A stretch of DNA of 36,889 nucleotides from Mycobacteriales bacterium (lineage in GTDB: Bacteria; Actinomycetota; Actinomycetes; Mycobacteriales; CADCTP01). Numbering within the stretch: position 1 is the stretch's first letter; the number at the start of each line of letters is the position of its first letter. The position numbers and the translations under genes are program-made. Below the pieces are notes generated by a model, which searched no databases, was not told where the DNA came from, and was given only the letters and a program-made list of their open reading frames with translations. Shown one piece after another: positions 1-15,200 of the stretch. The stretch covers positions 1 through 36,889 of the forward strand of contig DASYKU010000131.1 in NCBI GenBank assembly GCA_035995165.1, written 5' to 3'.

Positions 1-993
1 GACGCCGGGCAGGTGCAGCCCCGTCGTCTCGTCGCCGTCGTCCATGCCGTTCTTGGGGTCGTAGATCGGGTAGATCCCGACCATGCCCTTGTAGACGTTC
101 GAGCCGGTGTGGTCCATCCGGTGGTCGTGGAACCAGAAGAAGCTCTGCTTCTCCCGGTCGTCGTTGCCGGCCGGCCAGTTCAGGTACAGGTTGTCGACGA
201 AGTCGCCGACCCGGTAGCCCTCGTGCTGGGGGCCGAACAGCATCGAGTAGTGCGGGTTGCCGTCGGACTCCGGCGCGGTGTGGCCGTTGTGCAGGTGGGT
301 CAGGAACGAGAAGTCCGGCGAGCCGAAGTCCTGCCGGTCCAGGTTCAGCGGGTTCTCGTCCAGGTGGTTCTCGAACCGGACGATGACCGGCTTGCCGTAC
401 TCCGCGTTGATCCGCGGACCCGGGAACGTGCCGTTGAACCCGTAGATCGTCGACGGCGGCAGCGTCCGGACCGTGCCGGCCGGGTAGTGGTTGCCGGTCG
501 CGTCGTAGGAGACGACCCCGTCGCCGTGGTCGTCGATCGGCAGCACCTGCGAGGTGGTGAACGAGTGCGTCCGCACCAGCACGTCGAACTTGTAGACGAT
601 CGGGTCCGGGAACCCGATCGCCGACGGCCAGATCTGGTGCGTCTCGTTCCGCAGCGAGTTCTGCTGGCCCACGCCCGGCCCCGGCGGCAGCGGTAGCGCC
701 GCCACCTCCGTGGGCGTCAGCGGGGTCGCCGCCGGCGGGATCAGCAGCGGGTCGGTGAACGGGTTCAGGATCAGCGGGGTGATCGGAAAGTCTTCGATGT
801 AGAGCGAATCGGCCAATGCGATCGACGTGGCCCCGAAGATGCCGTCGCCCGACATCAGGCCACGCATCTTGAGATTCGGTTCCATCAGCACTTTACCGGC
901 GCCCACACCGACCGCGGCGGCGCCCACAGCGCCGGCGCGCAGGACGTTGCGCCGCGAAATTCCGGGGCGTTCGTCCGTGGTGGCTTCGGACAT
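1..993 (-). CDS. Multicopper oxidase (CotA/bilirubin-oxidase-like), N-terminal 331 residues, truncated by window edge
   Basis: The reading frame starts at ATG 993 and runs off the left edge. The N-terminus has a twin-arginine motif (SRRNVL) and an Ala/Gly-rich hydrophobic stretch, so Tat export is likely. Copper-ligand motifs of the first cupredoxin domain are visible: HLHNGH (His233, His235) and FHDH (His289, His291), followed by NVYKGMVG. These match the HLHGG and YHDHAM...NVYAGLVG patterns of CotA-type oxidases. The C-terminal T1 copper domain lies outside the window. The family oxidises phenols, bilirubin or Cu(I)/Mn(II) with reduction of O2 to water; the substrate cannot be told here. 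A GGAGG ribosome site precedes the ATG inside a small inverted repeat. The gene is divergent from the LysR gene across an unusually long gap. The family is clear; the function is open. Confidence 0.85.
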   Translation of the reverse strand, partial: MSEATTDERPGISRRNVLRAGAVGAAAVGVGAGKVLMEPNLKMRGLMSGDGIFGATSIALADSLYIEDFPITPLILNPFTDPLLIPPAATPLTPTEVAALPLPPGPGVGQQNSLRNETHQIWPSAIGFPDPIVYKFDVLVRTHSFTTSQVLPIDDHGDGVVSYDATGNHYPAGTVRTLPPSTIYGFNGTFPGPRINAEYGKPVIVRFENHLDENPLNLDRQDFGSPDFSFLTHLHNGHTAPESDGNPHYSMLFGPQHEGYRVGDFVDNLYLNWPAGNDDREKQSFFWFHDHRMDHTGSNVYKGMVGIYPIYDPKNGMDDGDETTGLHLPGV

Positions 994-996
994 CAG

Positions 997-1013
997 ACCA
1001 ACCTCCAGTTGGT
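997..1013 (-). promoter_or_regulatory. Inverted repeat enclosing the ribosome binding site of the multicopper oxidase gene
   Basis: On the minus strand this reads ACCAAC-TGGAG-GTTGGT, ending 3 nt before the ATG at 993. The GGAGG ribosome site falls in the loop and the first base of the 3' arm. It could be an operator or an mRNA hairpin that modulates translation; the 6-bp arms alone do not decide. Confidence 0.4.
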
Positions 1014-1437: not shown

Positions 1438-1473
1438 CCCCAATTCGGTATTCCGAACCCCCAAAAATTGGGG
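1438..1473 (-). promoter_or_regulatory. Palindrome plus half-site, candidate operator shared with ycnI
   Basis: Read toward the multicopper oxidase (minus strand), there is a palindrome CCCCAA-TTT-TTGGGG (1473-1459), then TTGGGG (1443-1438). The right arm and the half-site start 21 bp apart. Between them is the hairpin TTCGG-AATA-CCGAA. The 15-bp core differs by one base from the core at 14310-14324, and TTGGGGGTTCGG is found at both loci. Function is inferred only from recurrence, symmetry and position. Confidence 0.5.
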
Positions 1474-1818: not shown

Positions 1819-2774
1819 CGCCGACCCAGCTGCGGGCTTTCGCCGCAGTGGTGCGGCTCGGCTCGGTCAAGAAGGCCGCGTCCGACCTGTCGGTGTCCGA
1901 GGCCGCGGTCTCCCTGCACGTCGGCCAGCTGCGCAAGGAGCTCGGGGACAAGCTCTTCGTCCGCACCGCGTCCGGCATCGCGTTCACCCCGGGCGGGCTG
2001 CGGCTGGCCAGCCGGGCCGCGGAGATGCTGGGCCTGCAGGACCGGACGATCCTGGAGGTGAGCCAGGCCGGTGCCGGGCGGCGGCTGCTGCGGGTGGCGG
2101 CCTCGAGCCTGTTCGCCGAGCACGCCGCGCCCGGGCTGATCGACCTGTTCGCCAGCCGCGCCGACGACCTCGACGTCGAGCTGAGCGTGCACAACTCCAG
2201 CCAGTTCCCGGCGCTGCTGCGGACCCGGGCGGTCGACGTCGCCATCGGCCCGCGCCCGGACGAGCCCGACGAGGCGATCACCTGCACGCCGTTCCTGAAC
2301 TACGAGCTGCTCCTGGTCGCCGGGCCGGAGGACCCGATCACCCGCGGCGCCGCGGTCGGCATCGGCGAGCTGCGGTCCCAGACCTGGCTGCTCGGCCCGT
2401 CCGGGGCCTCGGACTCCGGGCTGGTGCCAGCCCTGCTGCGGCGGGTGTCCGTCCCGGAGGAGCGGCAGCGGATCTTCCAGAGCGACTCCGCCGCGCTGGA
2501 GGAGGCCAAGCGGAACAAGGGCATCGCGCTGGCGATGAAGTTCGTGGTCGGCCAGGACCTGGCCCAGGACCACCTCAAGCGGGTGCCGGGCCCGGCGCTG
2601 CCGGCCAAGGGGGTCTGGCACGTGCTCACGCTGGCCGACCGCTCCGCTCCCCCGGTGGCCTCGGAGCTGGCCCGCTTCGTCACCACGCCGCGGGCCATGC
2701 AGGCGATGCTGCGCGGCTCGGGCGTGACCGTCGGCCGGTTCCGCCCGTCCATCCACGTCACCCTGTGGAGCTGA
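1815..2774 (+). CDS. LysR-type transcriptional regulator
   Basis: This 319-residue protein has normal LysR-family length. The N-terminus (about 1-60) is a winged helix-turn-helix: MTPTQLRAFAAVVRLGS, then AASDLSVSEAAVSLHVGQLRKELG, with the usual TPGG after it. Residues from about 90 on form the effector-binding domain. The start is GTG 1815. The gene converges on the cox operon and its end overlaps the coxE end by 17 bp. LysR-type regulators (for example CutR in mycobacteria) control CO dehydrogenase genes, so it is a reasonable candidate for the cox regulator. It could instead control the divergent multicopper oxidase. The effector is unknown. Confidence 0.9.
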   Translation: MTPTQLRAFAAVVRLGSVKKAASDLSVSEAAVSLHVGQLRKELGDKLFVRTASGIAFTPGGLRLASRAAEMLGLQDRTILEVSQAGAGRRLLRVAASSLFAEHAAPGLIDLFASRADDLDVELSVHNSSQFPALLRTRAVDVAIGPRPDEPDEAITCTPFLNYELLLVAGPEDPITRGAAVGIGELRSQTWLLGPSGASDSGLVPALLRRVSVPEERQRIFQSDSAALEEAKRNKGIALAMKFVVGQDLAQDHLKRVPGPALPAKGVWHVLTLADRSAPPVASELARFVTTPRAMQAMLRGSGVTVGRFRPSIHVTLWS

Positions 2775-3936
2775 CCGCCCGGACCACCGCGGCCAGCGAC
2801 GCGAACGTGTCGGCCGGCAGCAGCTGATCGCAGTACGGCAGGGCCGCCGCCATCGTCGACACCGTCGGCGCGAAGCCCGGCGCACCGGCCCGCGGGTTCA
2901 TCCAGATCACCCGGTGCGCCCGCCGCCGCAACCGGGCCATCGCGTCGGCCACCGCCTCCGGCGGGTCGCTGTCCCAGCCGTCCGACCCGATGATCACGAT
3001 CGCGCCGCGGACGGCGTTGCCGTGCCGCGAGGCCAGCAGCGCCCGCAGGTTCGTGGCGATCCGGGTGCCGCCGAACCGGTCGGCCACGGCCGCGGTCGCC
3101 TGCTCCACCGCGACCTCGGCCGAACGGTGCAGCAGCACCGGCGTCAGCCGGGTCAGGCTGGTCGCGAACGCGAACACCTCCGCGTCCGCCCGCAGCGCGA
3201 ACGCCCGCATCAGGTGCAGGTACGCCGTCGCCTGCGCCTGCATCGACAGGCTCACGTCGCAGAGCAGCACGACCCGCCGCGGCCGGTCCCGCGGCCGGTC
3301 GCGGACCAGCACGACCGGCTCCCAGCCGGTCCGGCGGGCCCGGGCGATCGTGGGCCGGATCGCGATCCTCGTCCCGGACGGGTGCACCTTGCGGCGCCGG
3401 GACCGCCGGGTCGGCCAGTCCCGCAGCACGTTCTCCAGCCAGCGCCCGAGCTCGGCGAGCTGCTGCGGGGTGAGCGTCTCGAAGCCGGCGTCGCTCAGCG
3501 CGGCCAGCTCGCTGGGCAGCCGCTGCGGGAAGCCGAGCGGGCTGTCGGAGTCCCCGGCCCCGTCCACCGCGGGCGGCAGCGTCGCCCACGGGAGCCCGGA
3601 CCCGGCCTCCTCCGCCGCCTGCTGCTGCGGCACGGACGACAGCGTGCCGCGCCCGGCCGAGCGCCGGCTGTACGGGTCCAGCTCGAACTCGGCGTCGCTG
3701 AAGACCGCCTCGAACACCGCGTCGAACATGGCCAGGTCGGTCTGCCGGCGGATCAGCGTGATCCGGGCCGCCCAGTAGAGCTCCCCCTTGTCGTACGGCG
3801 GCAGCGCGCCGAGCGCCCGGACGAAGTCCTCGGCCATCGTGAACCCGACCTGGACGCCGCGGCGCCGCAGCTGGGTCGCCAGCGCCGTCGCGAACGCGGC
3901 CCGGTCCACGCCCGGCAGCACGGTCGGGCGGTTCAC
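2758..3936 (-). CDS. coxE: CoxE-like von Willebrand factor A domain protein
   Basis: The 392-residue protein has a C-terminal VWA domain. The MIDAS metal-binding motif DVSLS (Asp227, Ser229, Ser231) follows the strand RRVVLLC, and later IIGSDGWDSDPPE fits the second metal loop. The N-terminal half has a basic linker (RRSRRRK). In cox clusters CoxE works with the AAA+ ATPase CoxD in maturing the Mo/Cu centre of CO dehydrogenase. MoxR/VWA pairs elsewhere have a similar chaperone role. The start is GTG 3936, only 4 bp after the coxD stop, so it is the last gene of the operon. Its 3' end overlaps the convergent LysR gene by 17 bp. Confidence 0.85.
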   Translation of the reverse strand: MNRPTVLPGVDRAAFATALATQLRRRGVQVGFTMAEDFVRALGALPPYDKGELYWAARITLIRRQTDLAMFDAVFEAVFSDAEFELDPYSRRSAGRGTLSSVPQQQAAEEAGSGLPWATLPPAVDGAGDSDSPLGFPQRLPSELAALSDAGFETLTPQQLAELGRWLENVLRDWPTRRSRRRKVHPSGTRIAIRPTIARARRTGWEPVVLVRDRPRDRPRRVVLLCDVSLSMQAQATAYLHLMRAFALRADAEVFAFATSLTRLTPVLLHRSAEVAVEQATAAVADRFGGTRIATNLRALLASRHGNAVRGAIVIIGSDGWDSDPPEAVADAMARLRRRAHRVIWMNPRAGAPGFAPTVSTMAAALPYCDQLLPADTFASLAAVVRAVSSTG

Positions 3937-3940
3937 GGGC

Positions 3941-4831
3941 TCAGGACCGGACGGCCGCGGGGTAGCCGAGCCCGGCCAGGGAGCCGGCGATCGTCTCCCG
4001 GTCGTCCGGGGTCTTGGCGATCGTGCTGATCGTGCGCAGCACGTCCTCGCGAACCAGGTCGGCCGCGCCGAGCACGGCCAGCGCGGCCAGCCAGTCGATC
4101 GCCTCGGCCATCCCCGGCGGCTTGTCCAGGTCCAGCTCCCGGACCCGGCCGAGGAGCTGGGTGGTCGAGACGATCAGCGGCTCGTTCGCGGCCGGCACCG
4201 AGCGGCGCAGGATCTGCGCCGCCCGCGGCGGGTCCGGGAACTCGATCCAGTGGTAGAGGCAGCGCCGGCGCAGCGCGTCGTGCAGCTCCCGGCTCCGGTT
4301 GGAGGTGAGCACGACCACCGGCGGCCGGGCCGCCGCGAACGTGCCGATCTCCGGGATCGTGATCGCCGACTCGCCCAGGAACTCGAACAGCAGCGCCTCG
4401 AACTCGTCGTCGGCCCGGTCGATCTCGTCGATGAGCAGCACCGGCGGCCGCGGCCCGGCGTACCGGATCGCCTGCAGGATCGGCCGTTCCTGCAGGAACT
4501 CGGCCGTGAACAGGTCGGCGTCGTGCAGCGACTCGTGCCGGGACTCGGCCAGCCGGATCGCCAGCAGCTGGCGCTGGTAGTTCCACTCGTACAGGGACTC
4601 GCCGACGGTGAGCCCCTCGTAGCACTGCAGCCGGATCAGCCTCGTGCCCAGCGCGGTCGCGATCGCCTTGGCCGCGGTGGTCTTGCCGACCCCGGGCTCG
4701 CCCTCCAGCAGCAGCGGCCGGCCCAGCGACAGCGCGAGGAAGACGGCCGTGGCCGTCCCGTCGTCGACGAGGTAGCCGGCGTCGTCCAGGTGGCGGCGGA
4801 CCCCGGCGACGTCGTCCAGGCCGTAGCTCAC
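3941..4831 (-). CDS. coxD: CoxD-like MoxR-family AAA+ ATPase
   Basis: This 296-residue protein is of typical MoxR size. Walker A is GEPGVGKT (Lys50) and Walker B is LLIDEID (Asp135, Glu136). A sensor-1-like VVVLTSNRSRELHDALRRR follows. The start chosen is GTG 4831, because the frame remains open upstream but GTGA overlaps the TGA of the preceding xdhC gene, and MSYGLDDVAGVRRHLD is a standard beginning. CoxD is thought to unfold or remodel apo-CO dehydrogenase so that the [CuSMoO2] site can be assembled, together with CoxE, which lies 4 bp downstream. Cytoplasmic. Confidence 0.88.
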   Translation of the reverse strand: MSYGLDDVAGVRRHLDDAGYLVDDGTATAVFLALSLGRPLLLEGEPGVGKTTAAKAIATALGTRLIRLQCYEGLTVGESLYEWNYQRQLLAIRLAESRHESLHDADLFTAEFLQERPILQAIRYAGPRPPVLLIDEIDRADDEFEALLFEFLGESAITIPEIGTFAAARPPVVVLTSNRSRELHDALRRRCLYHWIEFPDPPRAAQILRRSVPAANEPLIVSTTQLLGRVRELDLDKPPGMAEAIDWLAALAVLGAADLVREDVLRTISTIAKTPDDRETIAGSLAGLGYPAAVRS

Positions 4832-5718
4832 GCGCCGCCGCGCAGCTGGGCCGCGTACTGGTCCCGGCAGCCGGGGTTGCAGAACCAGTGGTCCGTGCCG
4901 TCGATCGCGAGGCGCGGCGTGTCCGGCATGACCGTCACGGTCATGCCGCAGACCGGGTCGATCGCCGTCCGCGGCCGCAGCGGGGTCACCGGCAGCACCG
5001 GGCGGTCGGCCGAGCGCAGCGTCTGCACCACCTCGGCCACGATCGACAACGCCACCTCGGCCGCGGTCCGGGAGCCGAGATCCAGCCCGGCCGGCGTCCG
5101 GACCCGGGCCCGCTGCTCGCCGGTGAGGCCGAGCTCGTCCAGCACGGCCGTGCCCCGCTTCCGGCTCGCCACCAGGGCGATGTACGGCACCCCGGCCGCC
5201 AGCGCGGCCGTGATCGCGTCCTGCTCGTCCCGGCCGTGGCTGGCCACGACGACCGCGGTCGCGTTCTCCGGGATCGCGCCCGGGACGGACCGCGCCGTCG
5301 CATAGTCCAGGATGCCGGCGATCGCGAGCACGGCCTCGGCCACCGGCGTCCGCCCGACCACCTCGATCAGCGGCGCCGGCAGCATCGGCTGCAGGAAGAT
5401 CTCCAGCGCCCCGCCGGACAGGCACTCGTTGACCACGACCGTCGCTCCGGGCGAGTCCGGGAACGGCGCGGTGTCGTCCGGCAGCACCCGCAGCAGCACC
5501 GTGCGGCCGTCCTGCAACGCCCCCAGCGCGGCCGTCCGGACCGACGTCTCGGCGCACTGGCCGCCGACGAAGCCCTCGATCGTGCCGTCCTGCAGCACGA
5601 CCGCGTCGTCGCCGGCCCGGGCGGAGGACGGCACCTGGGCCCGTACGACCGTCGCGTGCACGAACGGCACGCGTTCGGCGGACAGCTCCAGCACGCGAGC
5701 TGCCATCCGCTGGCTCAT
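4828..5718 (-). CDS. CoxI/XdhC-family maturation factor fused to a C-terminal YHS domain
   Basis: Residues about 1-90 match the XdhC/CoxI domain (HATVVRAQVPSSARAGDDAVV, GFVGGQCAE). The middle is the XdhC Rossmann domain (AVVVASHGRDEQDAITAAL, YIALVASRKRG). From about residue 252 there is a Cys-rich YHS-type metal-binding domain: DPVCGMTV, then HWFCNPGC. XdhC-family proteins handle the molybdenum cofactor and its terminal ligand for xanthine and CO dehydrogenases. YHS domains are associated with metal sensing or delivery, mainly copper and heavy metals. CO dehydrogenase needs both Mo and Cu, so the fusion suggests a combined insertion factor; that is inference. ATG 5718 follows a strong GGGAGGGAGGGG ribosome site. 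The gap to coxL is 35 nt. Confidence 0.85.
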   Translation of the reverse strand: MSQRMAARVLELSAERVPFVHATVVRAQVPSSARAGDDAVVLQDGTIEGFVGGQCAETSVRTAALGALQDGRTVLLRVLPDDTAPFPDSPGATVVVNECLSGGALEIFLQPMLPAPLIEVVGRTPVAEAVLAIAGILDYATARSVPGAIPENATAVVVASHGRDEQDAITAALAAGVPYIALVASRKRGTAVLDELGLTGEQRARVRTPAGLDLGSRTAAEVALSIVAEVVQTLRSADRPVLPVTPLRPRTAIDPVCGMTVTVMPDTPRLAIDGTDHWFCNPGCRDQYAAQLRGGA

Positions 5719-5753
5719 CGTCCCCTCCCTCCCTGTCTACAGTGGACTGCGGC

Positions 5754-8140
<2,387 letters not shown>

Positions 8141-8144
<4 letters not shown>

Positions 8145-8632
8145 TTCGACTCCTCCAGGACCGTACGGTTGCCGGACTCCTCGGCCGCGGCCCACTGGAC
8201 GGAGCGGACGATCGTGGCGTAGCCGGTGCAGCGGCAGATCTGCCCGGAGATCGCCTCGCGGATCTCCTGCTGGCTCGGGTCCGGGTTGCGGTCCAGCAGG
8301 GCCCGGGTCGTCATCAGCATGCCGGGGGTGCAGAAGCCGCACTGCAGGCCGTGGCACTCCATGAAGCCGCGCTGGATCGGGTCCAGCTCGGCCCCCTTGG
8401 CCAGCCCCTCGACCGTACGGACCTCGTGGCCGCCGGCCATCGCGGCCAGCACCGTGCAGGACTTCACCGGCTCGTTGTCCAGCCAGACGACGCAGGTGCC
8501 GCAGTTGCTGGTGTCGCAGCCCCAGTGGGTGCCGGTGAGCGCGAGGTGGTCGCGCAGGAAGTGCACCAGCAGCAGGCGACCCTCGATCTCCCGGGTCACC
8601 TCCTCGCCGTTGACCGTCATCGTGACGAGCAT
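8141..8632 (-). CDS. coxS: CO dehydrogenase small [2Fe-2S] subunit
   Basis: The 163-residue protein has two iron-sulfur domains. The plant-type ferredoxin cluster is bound by CDTSNCGTC plus a later Cys in EPVKSC. The C-terminal four-helix cluster is bound by CGFC (QCGFCTPGM) and CRCTGY. It relays electrons between the molybdenum site in CoxL and FAD in CoxM. ATG 8632 lies 2 bp after the coxM stop; ATG 8620 is an alternative start, 4 codons inside. The 3' end overlaps coxL by 4 nt. Confidence 0.95.
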
Positions 8633-8634
8633 GC

Positions 8635-9510
8635 TCAGGCCTCCCGGGTGATGCGGGCCACGGCCCGGCGCAAGGTCCGGCGAGTGAGCTCGCCGGCCAG
8701 GTGTCGCTTGTACTCGGCGCTGCCGCGCATGTCGGTGGCCGGCTCGCAGGCCTCCGCGGCCAGCGTGCCCGCCTGCCGGTAGAGCTCCTCGGAGGGTTCG
8801 TGGCCGCGCAGCGCGGCCGAGATGGCCGGCAGCCCGGTGGTGTTCGGGCCGACCGCGGCCAGCCCGACCCGGGCGTCGGCGATCGTCCGGCCGTCCATCC
8901 AGACCGCGGCGCCCGCCGACACGACCGCCCAGTCCCCCGCCCGCCGCTCCACCTTCTCGTACGCGCTGGAGCCGTTGGGGCGCAGCGGGAAGCGGACCTC
9001 GACCAGCATCTCGGCGTCGCCGACGGCCGTCTCGTACGGGCCGCGGTGGAAGTCCTCCATGCTCACGACCCGCTCGCCGCCGCTGCCCCGGATCACACAG
9101 CTGGCGTTGAGGGTCGTGCAGACCGCGGACAGGTCCTCGCTGGGGTCGGCCTGGCACAGCGACCCGCCCAGCGTGCCGCGGTTGCGGACGACCGGGTCAG
9201 CGATGACGCGCTCGGCGTCCCGGAATATAGGAAACGATTCAGAAAGCGCGGTGGACTCGAACAACTCTCGGTGACGAGTCAGCGCGCCGATACGAATCTG
9301 GTCCGTCTCAACAGTGACGTACCCGAGCTCTTCGTGCAGGTCGTTGATATCGATGAGGTATTCGAAGTTCGCCAGCCGGAGTTTCATCATCGGCAGCAGG
9401 CTGTGACCGCCGGCGACCAGCCGCGCCGTGTCGCCGAGCCGGTCCAGCAGGCCGATCGCGTGATCGATGCTGGTGGCGCGCTCGTACTCGAAGGGTGCGG
9501 GAACCTGCAT
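8635..9510 (-). CDS. coxM: CO dehydrogenase medium FAD-binding subunit
   Basis: With ATG 9510 the protein is 291 residues; the frame is open to 9525. ATG 9510 is preferred because a GGGGG ribosome site lies 6-11 nt upstream and MQVPAPFEYERATS is a typical CoxM beginning. FAD-binding signatures are AGGHSLLPMMKLR near the N-terminus and TLGGSLCQADPSEDL in the middle (the TIGG motif varied to TLGG). The C-terminal CO-dehydrogenase flavoprotein domain follows. It is the first gene of the operon, and the M-S-L order is that of form I clusters. FAD here is the exit point for electrons to the membrane. Confidence 0.94.
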   Translation of the reverse strand: MQVPAPFEYERATSIDHAIGLLDRLGDTARLVAGGHSLLPMMKLRLANFEYLIDINDLHEELGYVTVETDQIRIGALTRHRELFESTALSESFPIFRDAERVIADPVVRNRGTLGGSLCQADPSEDLSAVCTTLNASCVIRGSGGERVVSMEDFHRGPYETAVGDAEMLVEVRFPLRPNGSSAYEKVERRAGDWAVVSAGAAVWMDGRTIADARVGLAAVGPNTTGLPAISAALRGHEPSEELYRQAGTLAAEACEPATDMRGSAEYKRHLAGELTRRTLRRAVARITREA

Positions 9511-9540
9511 GCGTACCCCCTGCAATAGTCCGTCGAGCTC

Positions 9541-14309: not shown

Positions 14310-14358
14310 CCCCAATGTTTGGGGTTTTCGGGGACCAGTCTTGGGGGTTCGGGGAACC
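14310..14358 (+). promoter_or_regulatory. Palindrome plus direct repeats upstream of ycnI, shared with the multicopper oxidase
   Basis: CCCCAA-TGT-TTGGGG (14310-14324) is followed by TTGGGG at 14341-14346. The two copies start 22 bp apart and extend into a longer direct repeat, TTGGGGTTTTCGGGGACC and TTGGGGGTTCGGGGAACC. The element ends about 100 bp before the ycnI start. The same core and half-site occur upstream of the multicopper oxidase (1438-1473) in the same orientation to the gene. A regulatory role is inferred from recurrence. Confidence 0.55.
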
Positions 14359-14456: not shown

Positions 14457-15200
14457 GTGTCCCGTTCCGTCATTCGCCTCCTCACCGTCGCGGGAGTTGC
14501 CGTGGCTGCCATCGCCACGACCGCGCTGCCCGCGCTCGCGCACGTGACCGTGAACTCGCCCGGCGCCACCCAGGGCGGGTTCGGGGTCCTGACGTTCCGG
14601 ATGCCCAACGAGGTCGACAACGCCAACGCCACCGAGCTGAAGGTCCAGCTCCCGGCCGAGACGCCGCTGGCGTCGGTGTCGGTCAAGCCCCAGCCGGGGT
14701 GGACCTACACCGTCACCCGGGCGAAGCTGGCGACGCCGCTGACCGACGACGACGGGAACCAGGTCACCGACTACCCCTCGGTCGTGGACTGGAAGGCCAC
14801 CGCCGGCGGGATCAAGCCCGGTGAGTACACCGAGTTCCAGCTGTCGGTCGGCCCGCTGCCCGAGGCCGACTCGATGACGTTCAAGGCGATCCAGACGTAC
14901 TCCGACGGCACCGTCGTGTCCTGGATCGAGCAGGCCGCCGCCGGCAGCAGCGACGAGCCCGAGCACCCCGCCCCGACGCTGAAGCTGGCCGCCGCCGGCG
15001 GCACCGCCACCGCCCCCGTCGCCACCACCCCGACCGTCACCGCGGGCGCCGACAACGACGGCAGCTCCGTCACCGGCGCGTACGTCGTCGGCGGCATCGG
15101 GCTCGTGGCCGGGCTGGCCGCGCTCGGGCTGGCGCTGACCGGACGGCGGCGCAAGGACGCCGCCGACGCCACCCCGGACCGCGTCAGCACCAGCGTCTGA
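14457..15200 (+). CDS. ycnI: YcnI-like copper-binding membrane-anchored protein (DUF1775)
   Basis: GTG 14457 is chosen because GAAAGGA lies 6 nt upstream and the signal peptide starts there. The frame is open further upstream but has no export signal. The 247-residue precursor is probably cleaved after ALPALA, giving a mature N-terminal His29 (HVTVNSPGATQGGF). In characterised YcnI the N-terminal His of the mature protein binds Cu(II) in a brace-type site with a conserved Trp, and GWTYTV and VVDWKA are present here. A C-terminal helix (YVVGGIGLVAGLAALGLAL) followed by RRRK anchors it outside the membrane. YcnI is linked to copper homeostasis. The usual CopC/CopD neighbours are absent. The 3' end converges on cydB over a shared hairpin. 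Confidence 0.88.
   Translation: MSRSVIRLLTVAGVAVAAIATTALPALAHVTVNSPGATQGGFGVLTFRMPNEVDNANATELKVQLPAETPLASVSVKPQPGWTYTVTRAKLATPLTDDDGNQVTDYPSVVDWKATAGGIKPGEYTEFQLSVGPLPEADSMTFKAIQTYSDGTVVSWIEQAAAGSSDEPEHPAPTLKLAAAGGTATAPVATTPTVTAGADNDGSSVTGAYVVGGIGLVAGLAALGLALTGRRRKDAADATPDRVSTSV

Follow-up and report, generated by a model that had tools for sequence, protein, structure and literature searches.

A rare tandem palindromic element upstream of multicopper oxidase, exported-protein and ycnI genes in a Mycobacteriales bacterium is a candidate operator of NarL-type regulators

Several described regulatory systems resemble the element analysed here. The type 2 operator of CsoR in Streptomyces lividans requires TAC-X9-GTA and a short CCCC-TNA-GGGG core (PMC3902906). 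It is likewise a G-tract/C-tract pseudopalindrome upstream of copper genes, but its TAC-X9-GTA arrangement and short central spacer do not fit the flanks and spacing seen here. In Corynebacterium glutamicum, the two-component system CopSR responds to copper and governs a multicopper oxidase along with other exported proteins, its OmpR-type regulator CopR binding the 9-bp direct repeat TGAAGATTTnnTGAAGATTT (PMC3353115). Our proposal resembles this in its kind of system and its kinds of target, but the candidate regulators here carry GerE rather than Trans_reg_C domains and the site is palindromic, on which grounds a CopR-type regulator was ruled out. Bacillus subtilis YcnI binds Cu(II) and is a suggested metallochaperone, and within ycnKJI its gene is thought to be controlled together with ycnJ by YcnK (PMC8424229, PMC9484137); the ycnI gene considered here encodes a protein of the same DUF1775 family, but is one of two paralogues and stands behind a module common to oxidases. 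Finally, NarL/FixJ regulators of the DesR, VraR, DevR and MadR families combine a receiver with a GerE helix-turn-helix domain, have HisKA_3 partners and bind tandem inverted-repeat sites, and in these respects they resemble our candidates. They differ in having a canonical T-V-K-[TS]-H helix in place of T-C-R-x-[YH]-[VI], the candidate site here is CCCCAAT...GGGG, and no curated equivalog is reached.

The window, meaning the whole 36,889-nucleotide stretch of DNA that was analysed (contig DASYKU010000131.1, here C131), contains two copies of the module (Table 1). A sequence-only reading of this DNA had described a palindrome plus a lone TTGGGG half-site upstream of ycnI and of a multicopper oxidase. 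Both modules are positioned exactly as it reported, with TTGGGG start-to-start distances of 22 bp (ycnI) and 21 bp (oxidase), and each points towards its own gene, as had been claimed. The ycnI module lies 147 bp from the GTG start codon and the oxidase module 480 bp from the ATG. The flanks at the two palindromes read GGG-CCCC...GGGG-TTT and TGA-CCCC...GGGG-GTT. The stretch TTGGGGGTTCGG, said to be common to both loci, is indeed found at both, but it adjoins the half-site at one locus and the palindrome at the second, and the remaining modules of the genome do not keep it.

Table 1 Positions of the two modules and their putative target genes in the window.
Feature	Position	Strand	Remarks
Tat-exported multicopper oxidase, putative target	1..993	-	Cu-oxidase_3, TAT signal; truncated at contig end
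Oxidase module, degenerate second copy ACCGAATTGGGG	1438..1449	-	TTGGGG at 1443-1438; G-tract 21 bp past the first; spacing kept in other modules
Oxidase module, strong palindrome CCCCAATTTTTGGGG	1459..1473	-	One of two exact cores genome-wide; best model match
ycnI module, strong palindrome CCCCAATGTTTGGGG	14310..14324	+	Exact core; model match
ycnI module, degenerate second copy ACCAGTCTTGGGG	14334..14346	+	TTGGGG at 14341-14346; G-tract about 22 bp past the first
ycnI, putative target	14457..15200	+	DUF1775, E 1e-46

Judged by a full-length paralogue on contig C151, the window oxidase is of the CotA/bilirubin-oxidase type. Contigs C131 and C155 both start inside an oxidase gene, with 294 of 300 bases identical and the first mismatch no earlier than base 142; the probable cause is a break of the assembly at a repeat common to both oxidase copies. 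A separate 17-nt stretch, CCAACTGGAGGTTGGTC, covers the oxidase ribosome-binding site (approximately 994-1012, minus strand) and is identical in all three paralogues (including L079 and L078). A hairpin could form from it over that site, but folding predictions did not give a consistently stable structure and the idea was dropped.

The element is both genuine and rare. The strict core CCCCAANNNTTGGGG (CCCCAAN3TTGGGG) has just two occurrences in the 5,368,498-base (5.37 Mb) genome, both on this contig, against 0.12, 0.03 and 0.007 expected under Markov models of order 1, 2 and 3 built from 185 kb of this genome, and 100 dinucleotide shuffles of the window gave no exact core match. The relaxed pattern CCCCNWWWWWNGGGG, with at most one mismatch, has 16 matches in the genome compared to one for its reversed control, about half of them at the oxidases and ycnI. 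With two mismatches allowed, the core shows no enrichment genome-wide (68 matches, and 95 for the reversed control), so the signal is confined to the strict core and the module. A simple module scan gave six modules in 167 kb of own sequence, every one of them at a single gene set, and two in 2 Mb of simulated sequence. A sequence model, R1, was then trained on these six modules plus one from the genome G462. Searched against the whole genome at E <= 10, it returned the six modules and one extra palindrome upstream of the C151 oxidase, and nothing else; as six of these seven matches are the training set and match by construction, the informative part is the absence of others. It could be argued that two G/C-tract palindromes merely look alike by chance, given that the two-mismatch core is not enriched and the pattern was picked after the fact. 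The excess of strict cores speaks against this, and the module scan, the R1 genome search and the recurrence of the element in other families beside the same gene system (see below) already largely refute it, making a chance likeness extremely improbable; the sequence-only reading had likewise judged chance unlikely.

The six modules of this genome lie upstream of three oxidase paralogues, ycnI and two large exported proteins. The oxidases on C155 and C151 are 90% and 81% identical to the window gene, respectively, and their leaders have diverged, yet both keep the element: CCCCAATTTTGGG and CCCCAATTCGTGGGG are found upstream of the former, CCCTAATTTTGGGG and CCCCTAAATTTAGGGG upstream of the latter. 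The modules at C115:12124 and C137:24753 occupy the same slot of two paralogous operons, which run in the order NarL-type response regulator (RR), HisKA_3 kinase (HK), module, large exported PKD protein. On C151 the oxidase gene diverges from that of a kinase belonging to the family of these module-linked kinases, and on C27 an HK-RR pair is divergent from an exported protein-oxidase pair. We also see two weaker single palindromes upstream of exported-protein genes, at C48:100791 (L175; CCCCGAAATTTGGG, with CCCCCCAATCTAGG nearby) and at C27:60225 (L218; CCCCCCTGGATTGGGG), which are possibly low-affinity regulon members.

Alignment of the six modules refines the anatomy of the element. Each shows CCCC, six to eight mostly A/T bases and GGGG, and then a degenerate copy such as ACC-GAAT-TGGGG. 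The G-tracts are spaced by 20-22 bp in the six modules and by 20-24 bp in the refined element; in a set of 25 sites drawn from several species, GGG starts pile up at 21-24 bp from the first G-tract, with none at 15-19 bp. The TTGGGG of the sequence-only reading is therefore part of a second, degenerate palindrome, and the module is a tandem pair of candidate operators separated by about two helical turns, not a palindrome with an isolated half-site. Counted from the start of the palindrome, the start codon is 99-147 bp away at ycnI and at the three exported-protein genes for which this was measured, and 327-480 bp away at the large oxidases, for which a leader of 300-450 nt is predicted. The spacer of 6-8 bp varies more widely than many dimeric sites allow, which counts against the operator reading proposed below.

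Both window genes encode predicted copper proteins, and the sequence-only reading had suggested a copper- or redox-responsive regulator. Searching the genome for the motif, which was expected to point to copper or respiratory genes, did concentrate the hits at one gene set, but many of the targets are not copper genes. Sensing of copper or redox state by this system is not supported: exported PKD/choice-of-anchor-D proteins and SARP-RR-HK operons make up many of the other targets, and the regulator encoded alongside is of NarL type, with a kinase ectodomain that lacks universally conserved Cys or His. The RicR consensus is TACCC-N5-GGGTA, and neither this pattern nor TAC...GTA-type (CsoR) patterns were found in the window and six own loci searched. 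That the element is not a CsoR consensus holds, as the TAC/GTA flanks are missing and the spacing is unlike that of CsoR. A second ycnI gene (G000:C2:13226-13966, L047), 79% identical to the window copy, sits in a canonical copper-type operon after a copC-like gene and before SCO-like genes, and has no module. An operator of a copper-sensing regulator, whether CsoR/RicR-like or of a new type, controlling oxidase and ycnI would fit the predicted copper proteins and the G-tract/C-tract palindromes typical of CsoR sites (PMC3902906), but given the structural nature of the other exported targets and the bare copC-type operon, we consider it unlikely.

The regulators that accompany the element point elsewhere. 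Those on C115, C48 and C27 score above the Pfam cut-offs for both Response_reg and GerE, the NarL/FixJ architecture, and HisKA_3 is above cut-off in the kinases at C137, C45, C151 and C27 and in Terrabacter. Regulators adjoining sites carry the T-C-R-x-[YH]-[VI] recognition helix, unusual for the NarL family and hereafter called ‘TCR’, whereas the oxidase-adjoining regulators of Ilumatobacter and Chloroflexi show helices of canonical kinds, for example T-V-K. Among loci recovered by a search for C27-like regulators, a regular expression placed a site within 1.5 kb at three of 10 ‘TCR’ loci (own C27, G579 and G703) and at one of 20 others, the latter a weak match; the ‘TCR’ loci with sites in G462, G446 and Arthrobacter came by other routes and are outside these 10. 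Several ‘TCR’ loci lack a perfect site close by, and the association of sites with ‘TCR’ regulators, as judged from gene neighbourhoods, is moderate and falls short of proof. In NCBIfam no equivalog exists for the regulator, the best match being MadR at 115 bits against a cut-off of 300. The kinases share one ectodomain containing the motif VK[VLI]WxxDGxVxxSD. Across 14 aligned ectodomains no Cys or His is conserved, H60 being conserved only within the Intrasporangiaceae set. A low-confidence structural model (mean pLDDT 63) matches the ligand-sensing domains of CitA, DcuS and DctB at a TM of about 0.4, a weak resemblance to CitA/DcuS-type ligand sensors that can serve as a lead only.

Outside this genome, the exact module is found in none of 398 other genomes of the order, and one sibling species lacks both the exact core and any relative of this oxidase, its only ycnI match being fragmentary. 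The oxidase clade itself is found in Arthrobacter, Terrabacter, Intrasporangium, Kineosporia, Microlunatus, Chloroflexi and others. In other species the module is missing from the promoters of ycnI relatives and almost always from those of large oxidases; a generic CCC-(AT)-GGG scan of 68 upstream regions of oxidase relatives, run for conservation at the orthologous promoter, gave only scattered matches. Loss at orthologous promoters, which in the sequence-only reading would refute a shared regulator, was thus partly observed, at ycnI and at nearly all large-oxidase orthologues, but the link to the gene system is conserved. When R1 was run over whole genomes of oxidase-clade species, five of the eight best non-training, non-overlapping places were directly upstream of the same gene system, namely SARP-RR-HK operons in Arthrobacter crystallopoietes and A. 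hankyongi, an exported protein in a Propionibacteriaceae MAG, an RR-HK pair in G446, and a small multicopper oxidase in G019, from another family. In G462 a full module stands 99 bp before an exported protein that is divergent from an RR-HK pair, and at five Intrasporangiaceae loci CCCCCAA...GGG occupies RR-HK-[site]-exported-protein and oxidase-membrane-protein-[site]-SARP slots. In Intrasporangiaceae, Microlunatus, Ilumatobacteraceae and some Chloroflexi the oxidase has an RR and an HK within approximately 4 kb, and at other loci it has exported-protein genes as neighbours. This gene linkage supports a single system of oxidase, RR-HK and exported protein.

Some oxidase promoters elsewhere carry other sequences. 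Arthrobacter-type oxidase and exported-protein promoters (L083, L084, L092, L093, L102 and L216) have an element of roughly TTTTCCCAAGGT-N13-CACAGTGG, perhaps a further promoter or regulator site that they have in common. Four further oxidase promoters (L104, L107, L108 and L113) have 11-bp direct repeats of the kind TTTTCCGAAGG, which suggests a different regulator there.

Because the module is confined genome-wide to a functional gene set and recurs at the same gene system elsewhere, a shared trans-acting regulator is indicated, as the sequence-only reading had proposed. LysR-type regulators often act on divergent genes, and a LysR-type gene (1815-2774) adjoins the oxidase module in the window in just this divergent arrangement. 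However, such a gene is seen at only one of the six own modules; at the others inspected, the element is flanked by a transglutaminase-like gene (on C155), by kinases and by NarL-type regulators. The LysR-type gene also adjoins CO-dehydrogenase-type genes, its more likely targets; binding of the module by this protein is highly unlikely. The CO-dehydrogenase-type cluster (2758-9525, minus strand) lies between the two modules and comprises CoxE-like, AAA ATPase, molybdopterin, 2Fe-2S and flavin subunits.

The binder might instead be encoded elsewhere, for instance a SARP/BTAD protein or an orphan factor, with the NarL-type regulators merely fellow targets. SARP genes do follow the site in Arthrobacter and Intrasporangiaceae, and some modules have no regulator nearby, no member of the ‘TCR’ family adjoining the C131 oxidase, the C155 oxidase or ycnI. 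Against this, among the loci inspected neither the own sites nor the G462 site showed a recognisable SARP gene, while NarL-type regulators recur. SARPs typically bind direct repeats, and the palindromic site is unlike these. We regard a binder of this kind as improbable.

Overall, the original observation is confirmed and its interpretation was half right, in that a shared regulator is supported, but most likely one of NarL two-component type, belonging to a secreted-oxidase and exported-protein regulon, rather than a copper sensor. We consider it probable that the module is the tandem operator of the ‘TCR’ regulators. Their receiver and LuxR/GerE helix-turn-helix proteins would be paired with the HisKA_3 kinases that share one ectodomain; a phosphorylated regulator dimer would bind the strong CCCC-N7-GGGG palindrome, and a second dimer the degenerate copy about two helical turns downstream. 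Together, the tandem dimers would activate, rather than repress, transcription of the Tat-exported multicopper oxidases, the giant exported PKD/choice-of-anchor-D proteins and, in this genome, one ycnI copy, whose product may help to supply copper to the oxidases. More tentatively, these genes, often together with those for a signal peptidase, a membrane protein and a SARP, could form an undescribed extracellular system, run by T-C-R-helix NarL systems with a new DNA-recognition specificity that read CCCCAAT...GGGG, in which the Tat oxidases chemically modify or cross-link the giant choice-of-anchor-D/PKD proteins outside the cell; we hold this to be possible rather than probable.

Our search of the open-access literature (subscription papers being outside its scope) returned no description of the operator, of a choice-of-anchor and oxidase system, or of a NarL and oxidase system. 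The regulon and operator thus appear to be new, while their kind, a NarL regulator with a palindromic operator, is already known. A palindrome noticed in raw sequence has in this way yielded a testable candidate operator, candidate regulators and a target list. The proposed regulon would join orphan secreted oxidases, giant exported proteins of orphan function and an uncharacterised branch of NarL-type regulators in several actinobacterial families, and would offer a clean route to ask what these multicopper oxidases do and which signal switches them on.
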